This document shows, piece after piece, positions 25,069 through 52,322 of a stretch of DNA of 64,000 nucleotides; within the stretch, counting starts at the first letter, position 1; each line of letters opens with the position of its first letter. Origin of the DNA: Paenibacillus sp. DCT19 (GTDB lineage: Bacteria > Bacillota > Bacilli > Paenibacillales > Paenibacillaceae); contig NZ_CP029639.1 in the NCBI RefSeq assembly GCF_003268635.1, forward strand, positions 1,065,501-1,129,500. Direction: 5' to 3'. Below the pieces are notes generated by a model. It saw only the letters and a program-made list of their open reading frames with translations. It searched no databases and was not told where the DNA came from. A program made the position numbers and the translations under genes.

Positions 25069-26100
25069 TTATTGCTTCTGAATGTATTTACGATAAAGGG
25101 CAGGGGTAATTTCCTCGAACTTCTTGAAGATTTTGATAAAATAACCTGATTCGTTGAAACCCAGTTCGTCACTAATCTGAGAGACAGGCATGTCGGTCAC
25201 CTCAAGTAATTGCTTGGCCCATTTAATCTTGAGTTTAGCCAGATAAGTTGTGAAGTTTTCACCCGTTTCCTTGGCGAATAAGCGACTGAAATAACTTGGG
25301 CTCAGGTGACAGAGATCAGCCATATGTTTTAACGAGACCTGCTCGCTTTTGTGACTATGAATGTATTCAAAGGCAGGCTGTAGCACTGGATTGGCAGATT
25401 CGGCTTCATTAGGACTCGTTTTCAGATAAGCATCCGCAATTGCATTGGTCATTTCTTTTTTGATGGATTCGATATTACGGATGGAATACCCTGGCAGGAT
25501 GGTCGCGAGGTTCAGTGATTGCTGATTGCCAGAAGCCTTCTCGAACATTTCCACGAGCAGATTTTTGTTCAACGCTTCCTCTACAATATAGTTGCAGAGC
25601 AGAGACAGCATATTTGAAATTTTTACAACCTCTTCATACGTCATGACCGGCAACTGGTCGTACTCTTCCTGTAACTCATTCAGCTTCTCGGCGTGCAACG
25701 GTACATTCTTGGAGGTCACGATCTGTTCCAGATCGGTGCCTTTCTCCGGGTCAGCCAGCTTAACTTGTCCAGCCATGACAGCCCCAATATATTTTCCGTC
25801 TATCGTGATGGGAATCGCAATATCTACAATGTTGAAATGACATAGATACACATAGGGTTCATTCAGTCGAACAGCTTCCAGACCGCCGCGCGAGTCACAT
25901 TTTTGGCAATAGGGAAGAAGCTCGGGATCTTTGCGTACACTCTGGCAGAACGCCTGACAACTACTGTGACTGGTTACAGGAATCCCTTTATAATCCACGG
26001 TTAAGATGGCTAGTTTCGTCACGGTGGCAAGTGAGTCCTGTAGCCGCTTCCATTTGGTGAGGTCAAGGATTTTATTAATATGCAAGTATTCCTTAATCAT
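25069..26100 (-). CDS. PocR-type sensor / AraC-family regulator of glycerol metabolism
   Basis: 343 aa. An N-terminal PocR ligand-binding domain (about 10-170) carries its Cys-rich motif (SSCQAFCQSVRKDPELLPYC, then QKCD) and DIAIPITIDGKYIGAVMAGQ. A C-terminal AraC double helix-turn-helix (about 245-340; VSLKHMADLCHLSPSYFSRL, ISDELGFNESGYFIKIFKKF) binds DNA. PocR domains sense small diols or triols. Divergent from gldA-dhaKL, which it very likely activates in response to glycerol or dihydroxyacetone. Ggaggt precedes the ATG. The gene is intact. Confidence 0.87.
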   Translation of the reverse strand: MIKEYLHINKILDLTKWKRLQDSLATVTKLAILTVDYKGIPVTSHSSCQAFCQSVRKDPELLPYCQKCDSRGGLEAVRLNEPYVYLCHFNIVDIAIPITIDGKYIGAVMAGQVKLADPEKGTDLEQIVTSKNVPLHAEKLNELQEEYDQLPVMTYEEVVKISNMLSLLCNYIVEEALNKNLLVEMFEKASGNQQSLNLATILPGYSIRNIESIKKEMTNAIADAYLKTSPNEAESANPVLQPAFEYIHSHKSEQVSLKHMADLCHLSPSYFSRLFAKETGENFTTYLAKLKIKWAKQLLEVTDMPVSQISDELGFNESGYFIKIFKKFEEITPALYRKYIQKQ

Positions 26101-26180
26101 GGTGAAACCTCCATAGCAGGCTGGATCAAGACGGTATGTCGTCCTACGTTATGTTCTTGTTTGAATTGGTTATATAAGTT

Positions 26181-26380
26181 AACTAAACTTTTTACACGAG
26201 AACGGAGAGGACAGAAATAACGTGAAGAAGCGAAGCGTTCGCCTAAAAGCTTTCTGAAAGAAAGCTACCTCGAAAGCATAGACTATCACCGGATTTTTCC
26301 TTTGAAGAAGGGAATGCAAAAAAATCTGGGGATAACAGCGATCGGAAGGTTATTCTGTCATCGGAGTGGTAGGTGTAAAC
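26181..26380 (+). repeat. Dispersed structured repeat R1, copy A (upstream of gldA)
   Basis: About 200 bp, matching 49756-49951 at roughly 85 percent by eye with a few short gaps. Shared parts in order: TACACGAGAACGGAGAGGAC; GACAGAAATAAC, which pairs with GTTATTCTGTC near the other end (one bulged base); a GCGAA-gcg-TTCGC hairpin; an AGCTTTCT/AGAAAGCT hairpin with a variable loop; a long CC(GG)ATTTTT...AAAAATCTGG stem; and GTGTAA matching the opening TTACAC. In this copy a tiny frame starts GTG at 26222 after GGAGAGG and stops at codon 12. Lies between the PocR regulator and gldA. Confidence 0.8.
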
Positions 26381-26401
26381 ATTGAACTTATATTCATGCT
26401 G

Positions 26402-48804: not shown

Positions 48805-49572
48805 CTACTTGCGATTCAATTGCGTGAGGTAGAGATGGTTGCGATATTCCGAAGGGGTAAGCCCCTCATATTGCTTAAACATTCGTAGAAATAGTTTGTA
48901 GTCTGAGAATCCGCACGCGCCAGCGATTTCCTTCACACTTGCATTGGTATTTAGCAGCATCTGTTTGGCTCGATTGATGCGTTGAGTCAGAATATACGTC
49001 TTGAGACCTACACCTTTTTCGCGCTTTACCATTTTGGAGATATAGTCCTTGTTGAAGTTAAACGTCTCAGCTACCTTCGCTACCGTAACATCCGTATGGA
49101 TATGAAGATCTATCCATTTGCAGATGTGATCCACAATGGCATTGTGTGCACGATAGTCGGAATTCGTATTACGCGCTAGCTCTTTCAATAACAGCAATAA
49201 CGCCGCGTCGGATTCCTCCGATGAGAACGAAGAGACATGCAGTAACTGCTTGAATAACTGATTCGCCGTTGACGGTACCTGGATTGTAGAATAGGTGGGA
49301 TACGTCAGAAACTCCTGCTGCTGCGTATCATAATGAACCCAGTAAAAGCTTACCGGTGCATCACTGGTCTGATACCCATAGTGGGTGAGCCCGGATCGAA
49401 GAAACAGCATATCGTTAGGGCGCATCACAAACTTCTGATCTTCCTGCGCAATATACATCTCTCCCTCTAACATCAAAATGATCTCTTGAAAGGGCATGCT
49501 ACGCTTCATGTGTGTCCAGTTACCCTCCGAAATAAATTTCCCGCAGAGGTAATGTTCTAATAGCTTTGGCAT
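48805..49572 (-). CDS. AraC-family transcriptional regulator
   Basis: 255 aa. N-terminal cupin-like sensing domain (FQEIILMLEGEMYIAQEDQK, MRPNDMLFLRSGLTHYGY), C-terminal double helix-turn-helix (DVTVAKVAETFNFNKDYISK; VKEIAGACGFSDYKLFLRMF). This plan is typical of sugar-responsive activators. Divergent from the GH127/146 gene with repeat R1 copy B between; the glycosidase is the probable target. Confidence 0.87.
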   Translation of the reverse strand: MPKLLEHYLCGKFISEGNWTHMKRSMPFQEIILMLEGEMYIAQEDQKFVMRPNDMLFLRSGLTHYGYQTSDAPVSFYWVHYDTQQQEFLTYPTYSTIQVPSTANQLFKQLLHVSSFSSEESDAALLLLLKELARNTNSDYRAHNAIVDHICKWIDLHIHTDVTVAKVAETFNFNKDYISKMVKREKGVGLKTYILTQRINRAKQMLLNTNASVKEIAGACGFSDYKLFLRMFKQYEGLTPSEYRNHLYLTQLNRK

Positions 49573-49755
49573 AGGACGGATTTATCCACCTTTTCTTGGA
49601 TTCTGAGTCTGATTCATTTGTATTTTATTTGATAACATGAGGAAGTACAAGGTTTACCAGAGATAACTGGCTAATCGATACGAGAGATAGAACGACGGAT
49701 TTTATCCTTTTTACTCAGATTGAAAATATATAATCACAGTTCGCTATATAAATTG

Positions 49756-49951
49756 AACTAAACATATACACGAGAACGGAGAGGACAGAAATAACATGGA
49801 GAAGCGGAGCGTTCGCCTGAAAGCTTTCTACAAGAAAGCTACATCGGAAGCATAAGCTATCCCCGGATTTTACCTTTGGAAAAGGAAATAAAAAAATCTG
49901 GGGATAACAGCGATCGGAAGGTTATTCTGTCATCGAAGTGGCAAGTGTAAC
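49756..49951 (+). repeat. Dispersed structured repeat R1, copy B (upstream of GH127/146)
   Basis: Partner of 26181-26380. The opening GACAGAAATAAC pairs with GTTATTCTGTC near the end; TACAC pairs with GTGTA outside it. Inside are GCGGA-gcg-TTCGC (A-T in copy A changed to G-T here, so pairing is kept), AGCTTTCT/AGAAAGCT with loop ACA (GAA in copy A), and CCCCGGATTTT/AAAAATCTGGGG. It ends 47 bp before the glycosidase start, so it should be part of that mRNA's leader if transcription begins upstream. The rest of 49573-49998 shows no gene. Confidence 0.8.
49796..49855 (+). CDS. Possible 19-aa leader peptide inside repeat R1
   Basis: ATG 49796, with GGAGAGG about 11 bases upstream, encodes MEKRSVRLKAFYKKATSEA. 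In copy A the same frame starts GTG and is cut by TGA at codon 12. Between the copies there is no indel over 60 bases; four of the eight changed codons are silent (CGA/CGG, CTA/CTG, ACC/ACA, TAG/TAA) and the start changes GTG/ATG. This mildly favours a translated, basic peptide, but the stop in copy A argues against its being essential. Confidence 0.3.
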   Translation: MEKRSVRLKAFYKKATSEA

Positions 49952-49998
49952 TATTCTTTATTTCAATTTATATGGATAGTTCATGAGGAGGAAATCAA

Positions 49999-52322
49999 TT
50001 GATTACACAAACGAACAGAGGATTTTTGAGTCCTGCACAGGTTGATCTATCGGATGGTGTGTTCCATACGTCACAGCAGGTGGGAGAACAGTATCTCTTA
50101 TCACTGGAAATGGATCGATTCCTTGCCCCATGTTATGAGGCGCATGGATTAAATGCACGCAAGGAACGTTACGCTGGTTGGGAGGCTCGTTCCATTAGTG
50201 GGCATTCCTTAGGACATTACATGTCAGCGCTTGCTGTGACCTATCAGGCGACGGGCAACGAGGAGTTGAAGCGTAGATTAGACTATGCAGTCAGTGAATT
50301 GGCTGGTATTCAGCAGGCGACAGGTAGTGGTTTTATTGGCGGCTTGCCTGAGGAAGCATTTATCATCGGATTCCAAGCTGAACACATTGGCGGTTTTAAC
50401 ATCGGGGAGTATTGGGTTCCTTGGTACAGTGTGCATAAAATCTATCGTGGACTTATCGATGCGTATAGGCTGACAGCGAATGAAGAGGCACTTCAGGTAG
50501 TCACTCGTTTTGCAGATTGGGCAGTGGCAGGACTAGAGGGCATGACGGATGAGCAGGTACAGAAGATGCTTCAGTGCGAGCATGGGGCATGAATGAGGTA
50601 TTTGCACAGTTGTATGGCATGACGGGCAAAGCGGTCTATCTGGAGACAGCGAAACGCTTTACTCATGAGACCATTTTGGCACCTCTAGAGCAGCAGAAGG
50701 ATGAGCTTCAGGGGATGCACGCCAATACTCAAATTCCGAAAGTGATTGGAGCAGCAGAGATTTATAATCAAGATCACTCCCACGAGAGCTACCGCACAGC
50801 GGCTGAATTTTTCTGGGATACGACCATACATCACCGTTCTTATGTCTTTGGTGCAACGAGCATTTCGGAGCATTACGAGGCCAAGGGCATGGAGAGCCTA
50901 GGGATTAAGACAGGAGAGAGCTGCTGTACCCACAACATGATGCAGTTAACGAAACAACTCTTCACTTGGAACCCAGATCATGCATACATTGATTATTATG
51001 AGAACGCTATCTACAATCACATTTTAGGCACACAAGATCCGGATACAGGGAACAAAACGTACTTTGCTTCCACGCTCCAAGGACATTACAAAATCTACGG
51101 AACTCATGATACCGCATGGTGGTGCTGCACAGGATCAGGCATGGAGAATCCGGGCAAGTATGCCGAAGCAATCTATTTCGAGGAAGACGATAACTTGTAT
51201 GTGAACCTGTACATTGCCTCTACGCTAGACTGGACTTCACAAGGATTGTCATTGAAGCTGCACACCGATTTCCCTTATTCGGAAAAAGGAACCCTGACGA
51301 TTACCGGAGGCAACGCCTCGGCGAATCTGAAGCTGCGCGTACCATCCTGGCTCCAAGAGCCGATGACGGTCATGGTGAATGGGGACACGCAGCAGATCGT
51401 GTCCCAGAGCGAGCCGGGATATATCACACTTTCCCGTCACTGGAACGAGGGCGATGTGGTTACCTTTACCCTTCCAATGGCGCTCAGTCGGTATACATCC
51501 CGAGATGATGAACACAAGGTAGCATTCCTGTACGGGCCTATTGTACTTGCCGGTGCACTTGGTAGCGAAGGGCTTCCTGTGGATACGATCGTAGACGAGA
51601 CTGCGTTGAATCCTAAGACTGCACCTGTACCTGTTATCTGGACAGAGGAAGAGGATGTACGGAAATGGATTCAAGTTCTCGATCAGAGTAGGTTAACATT
51701 CGAGCTGAGCGGAGAGGTAACTTCCACGGGAGAGGCTGTGAAGCTCATTCCGTTCTATGATGTGCATCATCAGTTCTATACGGTGTATTGGCCGCTCAAC
51801 GATGAAGGAGATGCGCTGGAGAAAGTATTGAACGATATCACCATTGATAGAGTTCAGCCGGACGGTCAGCAGGATGAGATCGGACACCAGCTGGACGGCA
51901 ACTGCCGTGAGGCGCAGTATAACGGCTCTTCTACGGACGGCCGCAACAAGCTGCACATGTGGCGAGAAGCGTACGGTACTCGTGATGCTCACTTCAGTTA
52001 TCGACTAGCTATAGAGCCGTCTGCTACTAATTATCTGTGCGTAGCCTATTGGGGCGGAGATCATTCTCCTTTTGAACGTGAGGGCATTCGGTATGATCGG
52101 CACTTCAATATTATCGTCGATGGAGCCGTTATTGGAGAGCAGCGGATTCATATGAACAAGATTGGCGAGACGTTCTATGTTGCCTATGATATTCCGCAGG
52201 AAATCACGTCAGGTAAAGACAGTGTTAAGGTGACGTTCCAGGCGCTGGGTGACAATGGCTGTGCCGGTAAAGTCACAGAGGTTCGCACCACACGAAGCAA
52301 ACCGGAATTTCTGATTATTTGA
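49999..52322 (+). pseudogene. GH127/GH146 beta-L-arabinofuranosidase (DUF1680) with one frame break
   Basis: TTG 49999 with gaggagg 7 bases before. All-alpha (alpha/alpha)6 barrel followed by beta-sandwiches. The frame changes at G4 50584-50587; adding one G gives QCEHGGMNEVFAQLYGMTGK with nothing missing. Catalytic and zinc-binding cysteines are present: GESCCTHNMMQLTKQLF and WWCCTGSGMENPGKYAEAI (the second Cys pair holds the nucleophile in characterised members). No signal peptide, so it acts in the cytoplasm on imported arabino-oligosaccharides. About 775 aa after repair. Probably intact in the cell. Confidence 0.87.

Follow-up and report, generated by a model that had tools for sequence, protein, structure and literature searches.

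A short repeat of Paenibacillus genomes with the ends of a mobile element and a core apparently selected as RNA

Two similar stretches of about 200 bp, each placed in front of a catabolic operon, raise the question of whether they are regulatory leaders or mobile DNA. The first-pass annotation offered both answers: a family of leader RNAs reused at sugar/polyol loci, or a mobile repeat with a fold that supplies leaders by chance. The second is supported by inverted-repeat ends, an empty site, an in-place inversion and about 100 copies in the genome. We propose, with a probability of roughly 0.55, that the repeat is a MITE-like, non-autonomous mobile element in which DNA ends enclose a one-strand RNA core, and that the fold of this core acts in cis. 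The better-supported half of this proposal, from sequence comparison, is the folding of the core as one-strand RNA; its action is what we infer from placement.

Both copies in the window (the whole 64-kb stretch of DNA analysed) proved to be real: copy A and copy B share 89% identity over the core, and a 20-mer from the 3' part of the element matches twice in the window and never in 100 shuffles of it. As had been annotated, each lies on the same strand between a minus-strand regulator and a plus-strand operon; our gene reading gives a PocR-like AraC-type regulator (25069-26100, minus strand) beside copy A and an AraC-type regulator (48805-49572, minus strand) beside copy B. The positions given at first, 26181-26380 and 49756-49951, located the copies correctly but fell short of their extent, which with the inverted repeats is about 26171-26393 and 49745-49974 (Table 1), the widened end points being read by eye from these repeats. 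The elements thus measure 223 bp (copy A) and 230 bp (copy B) with cores of about 155-195 bp, and elements and cores are too short for a transposase gene. In the regulator at 25069-26100, which stands beside gldA and a dihydroxyacetone kinase gene, a PocR-like part (NF047788, below cut-off) precedes the AraC-type domain. The predicted arabinofuranosidase gene (49999-52322) is made up of two ORFs, 49999-50592 and 50574-52322, which overlap and are read in different frames, possibly owing to a frameshift or a sequencing error; NCBIfam gave a match for the second ORF only, a weak one to aceric acid hydrolase.

Table 1. Extent and parts of the two elements, in positions of the window
Feature	Position	Strand	Basis or remark
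Copy A, complete element (long form, module present)	26171..26393	+	aligned to copy B, to other genomic copies and to the orthologues in P. tundrae and Root52
Copy A, left terminal inverted repeat TATATAAGTTAACTAAAC	26171..26188	+	copy and orthologue alignment
Copy A, P1/P1b 5' arm	26210..26221	+	CGGAG of the symmetric GGA/GGA internal loop just before
Copy A, P2 mini-hairpin GC-GAA-GC	26230..26236	+	covariation test
Copy A, PX 5' arm GTTCGC	26237..26242	+	covariation test
Copy A, optional module: hairpin AGCTTTCT-GAA-AGAAAGCT and tail	26245..26283	+	missing at the P. tundrae orthologous site
Copy A, P3 5' arm	26284..26297	+	pair counts, covariation
Copy A, P3 3' arm	26320..26334	+	pair counts, covariation
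Copy A, PX 3' arm GCGATC	26338..26343	+	covariation test
Copy A, P1/P1b 3' arm	26349..26359	+	second CGGAG comes next; pair counts, covariation
Copy A, right terminal inverted repeat TTGAACTTATAT	26382..26393	+	shortened: bases of orthologues missing
Copy B, whole element, long form	49745..49974	+	alignment with copy A and orthologues
Copy B, left terminal inverted repeat TATATAAATTGAACTAAAC	49745..49763	+	end-pattern matches
Copy B, P1/P1b 5' arm	49784..49795	+	pair counts, covariation
Copy B, P2 mini-hairpin GC-GGA-GC	49804..49810	+	covariation test
Copy B, PX 5' arm	49811..49816	+	covariation test
Copy B, optional module	49819..49857	+	missing in P. tundrae (L083)
Copy B, P3 5' arm	49858..49871	+	pair counts, covariation
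Copy B, P3 3' arm	49893..49906	+	pair counts, covariation
Copy B, PX 3' arm	49910..49915	+	covariation test
Copy B, P1/P1b 3' arm	49921..49931	+	pair counts, covariation
Copy B, right terminal inverted repeat TTTATTTCAATTTATAT	49957..49973	+	orthologue alignment

The search of this genome and of other Paenibacillus that had been suggested as a check revealed a high-copy family. The 24-mer TCTGGGGATAACAGCGATCGGAAG with up to three mismatches has 103 matches in the own 6.67 Mb genome and none in the reversed control; BLAST gave at least 43 matches there (40 of 152 candidates scored). An exact 24-mer from the 5' part occurs in 74 stretches of other Paenibacillus genomes, the species including P. 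pabuli, P. tundrae, P. xylanexedens, P. taichungensis, P. amylolyticus and P. polymyxa. All model searches used the covariance model R1, built with a GCGAA/TTCGC hairpin that was later rejected. It matched in 202 of 245 genomes of the family, covering 13 of 19 genera (at most 12 candidates scored per genome), and a deeper search of 12 genomes, all picked from those with matches, gave 3-72 copies per genome. In a sample of the order 16 of 40 genomes matched, with 7 of 31 from other families; these seven matched again on repeat search, and in the copies of other families the P2/PX strand and the 3' strand are recognisable and P3 is rewritten. A class sample yielded 27 of 299 genomes, all inside the family (10 candidates scored each), and 13 genomes from outside the order gave no match to the model with 150 candidates scored in each. 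As far as Rfam 15 (4227 families) is concerned, the earlier statement that there is no fitting named class is correct: the window gave no match at the gathering threshold, copy A none up to E 10 and seven loci of other genera none up to E 1.

The common fold was examined in an alignment, A2, of 71 short-form copies, obtained from 128 distinct cores by a similarity filter (79 left) and removal of 8 with the module inside P2. It was found that 90.7% of the cells are paired, and the covariation which the first-pass annotation had proposed to look for is present in 38 of 47 pairs as two-sided changes, compared with 18.8 in shuffled alignments, none of 500 reaching this value; shifting the structure by one column lowers the pairing to 33-48%. 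The end-closing helix GACAGAAATAAC/GTTATTCTGTC was confirmed, and so was the long ATTTT/AAAAT stem, as helix P3. P1 contains a symmetric internal loop with C-GGA-G on both sides, which is deduced from the covariation of the neighbouring pairs 12-148 and 16-144. The GCGAA/TTCGC hairpin, for which an A-T to G-T change had been cited, performed no better than shuffles (94 of 500 equal its percentage paired), and the same bases fit PX (GNTCGC with GCGATC) together with the mini-hairpin GC-GNA-GC, which are 99.2% paired with two-sided changes in 5 of 7 pairs, reached by none of 500 shuffles. P4 is the weakest helix (73.7% paired in A2). Column pair 62-112, weak throughout the family (18 of 70 cells unpaired), is probably the one that had been described as lost from copy A. 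The bases around the junction are near-invariant. Energies of single copies do not choose a strand, because in the window copies each strand folds better than shuffles do, but the consensus of the alignments does, with -19.0 sense versus -7.7 antisense for short copies and -29.4 versus -15.6 for long ones.

Long copies carry an additional module of 38 nt that has been gained or lost at orthologous sites, those of both window copies included: at the site of copy A it is present in the own genome and in Root52 and missing in P. tundrae, and the copy B site is long in the own genome and short in P. tundrae. Its AGCTTTCT/AGAAAGCT hairpin, already recognised in the first-pass annotation, was confirmed by Watson-Crick pairing in 389 of 392 cells of 49 long copies. 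Copies with two modules exist (L018, L101), and in some copies the module lies inside P2. Some copies of other genera contain it too, at the same insertion point in 2 of 3, and in these same-point modules the base pairs of the hairpin differ on both sides.

The outer parts of the repeat are those of a mobile element. Thirty aligned genome copies extend past the earlier limits into inverted repeats; the terminal repeats TATATAAGTTCAACTAAA / TTTAGTTGAACTTATATA are present on many own copies, and the 14-mer end pattern TAAGTTSAACTAAA with at most one mismatch has 56 matches (reversed control 20). Left and right repeats covary (one pair, for example, is GC 36 times and CG 25 times), although they are imperfect in many copies, 323 of 1708 cells being mismatched other than as G-U or A-C. 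The ends are specific to lineages: TATATAAGTTCAACTAAA in the own genome, GGTGAAA..TTTCACC in G088 and AGAGCGTGTTCAAAAAGG in G574. The cleanest insertion is the own copy at 875401-875549, whose upstream flank is present in 48 of 75 genus genomes; among 30 loci fetched, only the own one contains the anchor. Alignment of the own locus with three relatives gave CCCTTGTA-[element]-TAGAAGAATC as opposed to the empty CCCTTATATACAAGAATC, and in a by-eye comparison the own flanks plus one TA come within two letters of a relative's empty site. The target duplication, TA, is ambiguous between 2 and 4 bp and could be resolved at this one locus; further empty sites in relatives (e.g. L084, L044, L062/L086) have less clean boundaries with no duplication resolved. 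Compared with the own genome and P. tundrae, Root52 has one element inverted in place (L104, 4636-5035), and inversion between the end repeats could serve as a switch. Altogether 106 orthologous-site comparisons gave 80 same, 22 without anchor and 4 inverted (all one event), several of the 22 being partial deletions rather than empty sites; site alignments covered 7 + 4 loci, with the pairs L016-L032 and L057/L078-L157 left unaligned. Inverted-repeat ends, presence and absence at orthologous sites with target duplication, and a non-coding size are the marks by which the element is recognised as a MITE. Three own-genome loci (L120, L121, L125) consist of joined terminal repeats, i.e. palindromes, with no core, and a fourth (L133) has a short remnant; these are candidate excision products or end-only derivatives.

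At the one site where it can be read, the outer layer consists of inverted-repeat DNA ends inserted in a TATA-like target with TA duplicated (2 or 4 bp), and the mover may be a transposase of the Tc1/mariner (IS630) type that acts in trans. The own genome holds no widely spaced pair of matching ends (at most one mismatch) for a partner transposase and no match to PF13358; this family has matches in 7 of 20 genomes searched.

The placement of the copies relative to genes was surveyed in 104 own copies (100 listed of the 103 anchor matches and 4 found by BLAST only), with neighbours taken from a longest-ORF script, so single neighbour calls may be wrong; terminator and ORF tests were likewise simple in-house scripts. 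Seventy-two copies are sense and 7 antisense between co-directional genes, 14 lie in divergent and 9 in convergent regions, and 2 have a neighbour missing. The first-pass annotation had held that copies in both orientations at random would contradict a regulatory role: a sense bias (72 versus 7) was found in the own genome, but orientation is even in other genera (18 same/same versus 17 opposite/opposite among 61 copies, kept from 74 model matches after 12 weak and 1 duplicate were dropped, about half from one genome). Gene direction and replication both seem to matter, since sense to antisense between co-directional genes is 62:3 on the leading and 10:4 on the lagging strand, and all 14 divergent-region copies point with replication; here the terminus is assumed near 3.4 Mb and the origin is placed at 0 from dnaA-dnaN-recF, named by ORF reading. 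From the approximate right edge to the next start the median distance is 55 nt. Of the 72 stretches on each side of the element, our scan found a terminator in 9 of those before it and in 4 of those after it, leaving 63 and 68 with none detected (stretches of 25 nt or less being scored as none), and neither window copy contains a terminator-like site. Since most copies are placed in sense and usually have no detected terminator on either side, they would be co-transcribed with their neighbours. The idea of leaders reused at sugar/polyol loci was not upheld: 87 downstream proteins fall into 157 Pfam families, and no common theme was seen among the 25 families listed, the largest of which, BPD_transp_1, has 4 members. 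A few downstream genes are sugar-related; others encode enolase, SHMT and AICARFT.

Some copies appear to be kept, and the best case is the own copy between the genes of phosphoglycerate mutase (iPGM, PF06415) and enolase. The eno gene is present in all 75 genus genomes, of which 30 + 20 were inspected at this site: the element stands in sense before the eno start in all 30 best-matching loci, own included (in L323 part of the 3' core is missing), and in none of 20 more distant members. The same site in 40 genomes of other genera holds none in sense, L409 having a weak antisense match. For the structure 29 of the 30 copies were used, L329 being left out as it carries the module; the 26 distinct sequences have a mean identity of 0.83. 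Their P1, P2, PX and P3 contain 8 G-U versus 1 A-C pairs and P1b 4:4, and 50 of 364 P3 cells are unpaired. Covariation is modest, more than one Watson-Crick type being seen in 1 of 10 pairs of P1, 1 of 2 of P2, none of 5 of PX and 3 of 14 of P3. Since two outer arm types and the module occur at this one locus, the place seems to have been kept while the sequence was exchanged. Retention could come from shared descent alone and by itself is no proof of function.

Whether the core is selected as RNA or as DNA can be judged from wobble pairs. Every G-U in a DNA hairpin corresponds to an A-C on the opposite strand, and the two are expected to be equally tolerated; the contrast between the main core helices and the outer arms within the same set of copies offers a way to tell RNA-level from DNA-level selection. 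Subfamily alignments were made from 191 distinct copies, 36 of which lie outside the subfamily patterns; of the remaining 155, 96 short and 49 long ones aligned within length limits. In the short copies P1a, P1b and P3 contain 8 + 38 + 104 = 150 G-U versus 4 A-C, compared with 129 versus 97 in TIR and P0, pointing to selection of the core as one-strand RNA. A conserved P3 G-U pair (90 of 96 copies) accounts for much of the count, which is 60:4 without it; P2 as drawn in the earlier note gives 46:22, and P4 runs in the contrary direction (31:65). In the long copies the ratios are 79:8 for P1a, P1b and P3, 36:54 for TIR, 9:4 for P0 (45:58 for the last two together) and 16:40 for P4. The mixed alignment A2 gives P1 17:4, P3 72:0 and PX 13:1, with P1b 24:26, P4 29:65 and P0 10:11; over all helices the ratio is 167:108, 23 positions favouring G-U and 12 A-C. 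We tentatively read the counter-trend of P1b and P4 as register and length misalignment, and P1, P3 and PX are trusted more because P1b register and P4 length differ between subfamilies. P1 and P3 were singled out after the data were seen, and Fisher values for these counts are not probabilities, because the copies are related.

On this basis the inner layer would be a 120-190 nt RNA, apparently selected as one strand, with P1 and its GGA/GGA internal loop, the small GNA hairpin P2, then PX, P3 and P4, a near-invariant 3' strand and, as an option, the hairpin module. With own-genome copies mostly sense, between co-directional genes and shortly before the next one, its likely function would be that of an intercistronic or leader module in cis, tuning processing, stability or translation of the flanking mRNA; at a minimum the fold might let a transcript tolerate an insertion. 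The cis role, which explains the sense placement and the eno copy, is ranked first.

A purely cis role nevertheless does not predict all data, because in other genera the G-U excess is independent of gene orientation and there is no sense bias. Sixty-one rows (the first 61 matches of at least 140 bases, two being the same copy and 31 coming from G088) gave P1 24:2 and P3 22:4, together 46:6, with P1b 21:30, P4 10:43 and P0 17:21. By orientation of the two neighbours P1 and P3 contain 7:2 (opposite/opposite), 8:1 (opposite/same), 13:1 (same/opposite) and 13:1 (same/same), and for antisense copies the host mRNA is the wrong strand. The RNA might instead serve the element itself or act in trans, as a small RNA for mobility (transposase binding, RNA intermediate) or by binding a host protein, and we regard this as possible but clearly less probable than the cis reading: the joining of the same core to different terminal repeats by lineage and the tandem arrays in one genome agree with it, but promoter consensus sites show no excess over shuffles at either window copy (4 versus 3.2 and 2 versus 1.2 expected), an element of this length has no room for its own protein gene, and the own-genome sense bias and the eno copy suggest cis effects. 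Equally tentative is a wider picture, of an order-wide mobile element with a functional RNA payload, its core joined to different ends, which would seed operon regulators of which some, as at iPGM-eno, become fixed; selection on antisense copies would then suggest a role in its own mobility or a dedicated binding protein.

It is unlikely that the element is a plain DNA-hairpin MITE in which the palindrome matters as DNA (cruciform, slippage) and covariation reflects template-switch correction between the arms. Arms do change together (AAGTTCAAC/GTTGAACTT versus AAATTGAAC/GTTCAATTT), one element has been turned round in place, folds of the single window copies beat shuffles on either strand, and arms, P4 and P1b of the mixed sets have no G-U excess; nevertheless the one-strand excess in P1/P3 (with P1b in the 150:4 count), absent from the arms of the same copies and recurring in other genera, and the near-invariant junction bases speak against it. 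Very improbable is a classical cis-regulatory leader of catabolic operons (riboswitch-like or protein-binding) spread by duplication, since insertion at an empty site, mixed neighbours, window copies with no terminator-like site and even orientation in other genera outweigh the conserved junction, the own-genome position before the next gene and the kept eno copy.

Folded mobile repeats are known in other bacteria, and they have often been proposed as regulators; the Paenibacillus element is without a match among catalogued RNA families. BOX of Streptococcus pneumoniae is a modular repeat with an internal unit in varying number, and by description it resembles our element in its modular internal unit. 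According to the available text of a review (PMC2229807), RUP of S. pneumoniae is a 107-bp MITE of 108 copies with TA targets and ends like IS630-Spn1. The likeness extends to a short intergenic repeat with inverted-repeat ends, TA-containing target and high copy number, but that text gives RUP no structure or function signature, whereas in the Paenibacillus element the core covaries, a module may be present or absent and the range spans several families, and a RUP-like partner transposase was not found in the own genome by matching ends or PF13358. Correia/NEMIS, in the same text, has forms of 107 and 155 bp set apart by a 50-bp internal piece, thus also two size classes by internal module, and its transcript hairpins were proposed to affect neighbour mRNA; the Paenibacillus module in contrast is a hairpin that covaries between genera, may be doubled or placed within P2, and varies in presence between orthologous sites. 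ERIC of enterobacteria (127 bp) is there described as co-transcribed with its neighbours, orientation mattering for mRNA stability; both repeats would lie in the transcript of neighbours, but the ERIC effect is experimental and ours rests on placement and comparison. In the accessible part of PMC3446304, bcr1-bcr18 of the Bacillus cereus group include the MITE-like bcr1-3, often in UTRs or inside operons, and bcr10 and bcr18 with conserved secondary structures transcribed in 5' UTRs; as described there, they are set apart from the Paenibacillus element, a single superfamily with one-strand wobble evidence and several end types. A transcriptome study of P. riograndensis, in the text available, compared the genome and 209 long 5' UTRs with Rfam (PMC5670726). 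In the literature searched, most subscription papers lying outside it, neither a Paenibacillus MITE nor this repeat was met, which is no proof that it is unpublished.

If the cis role is true, new leader and intercistronic regulators would arise from this element in Paenibacillus, and it would form a class of structured RNA that Rfam 15 lacks. Natural alleles at the same site (with or without module, inverted, absent) are a ready experiment, and with a single covariance model hundreds of genomes can be searched for kept copies.

In G088 tandem arrays of four (L241, 2265-2939) and three (L242, 2191-2712) near-identical elements were observed, with spacings of 171 and 180-185 bp. No copies were found in plasmid or phage records by blastn. 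In IMG/VR 13 stretches (L337-L349) on 12 viral contigs carry an exact 21-mer of the element, and these contigs are perhaps Paenibacillus proviruses.
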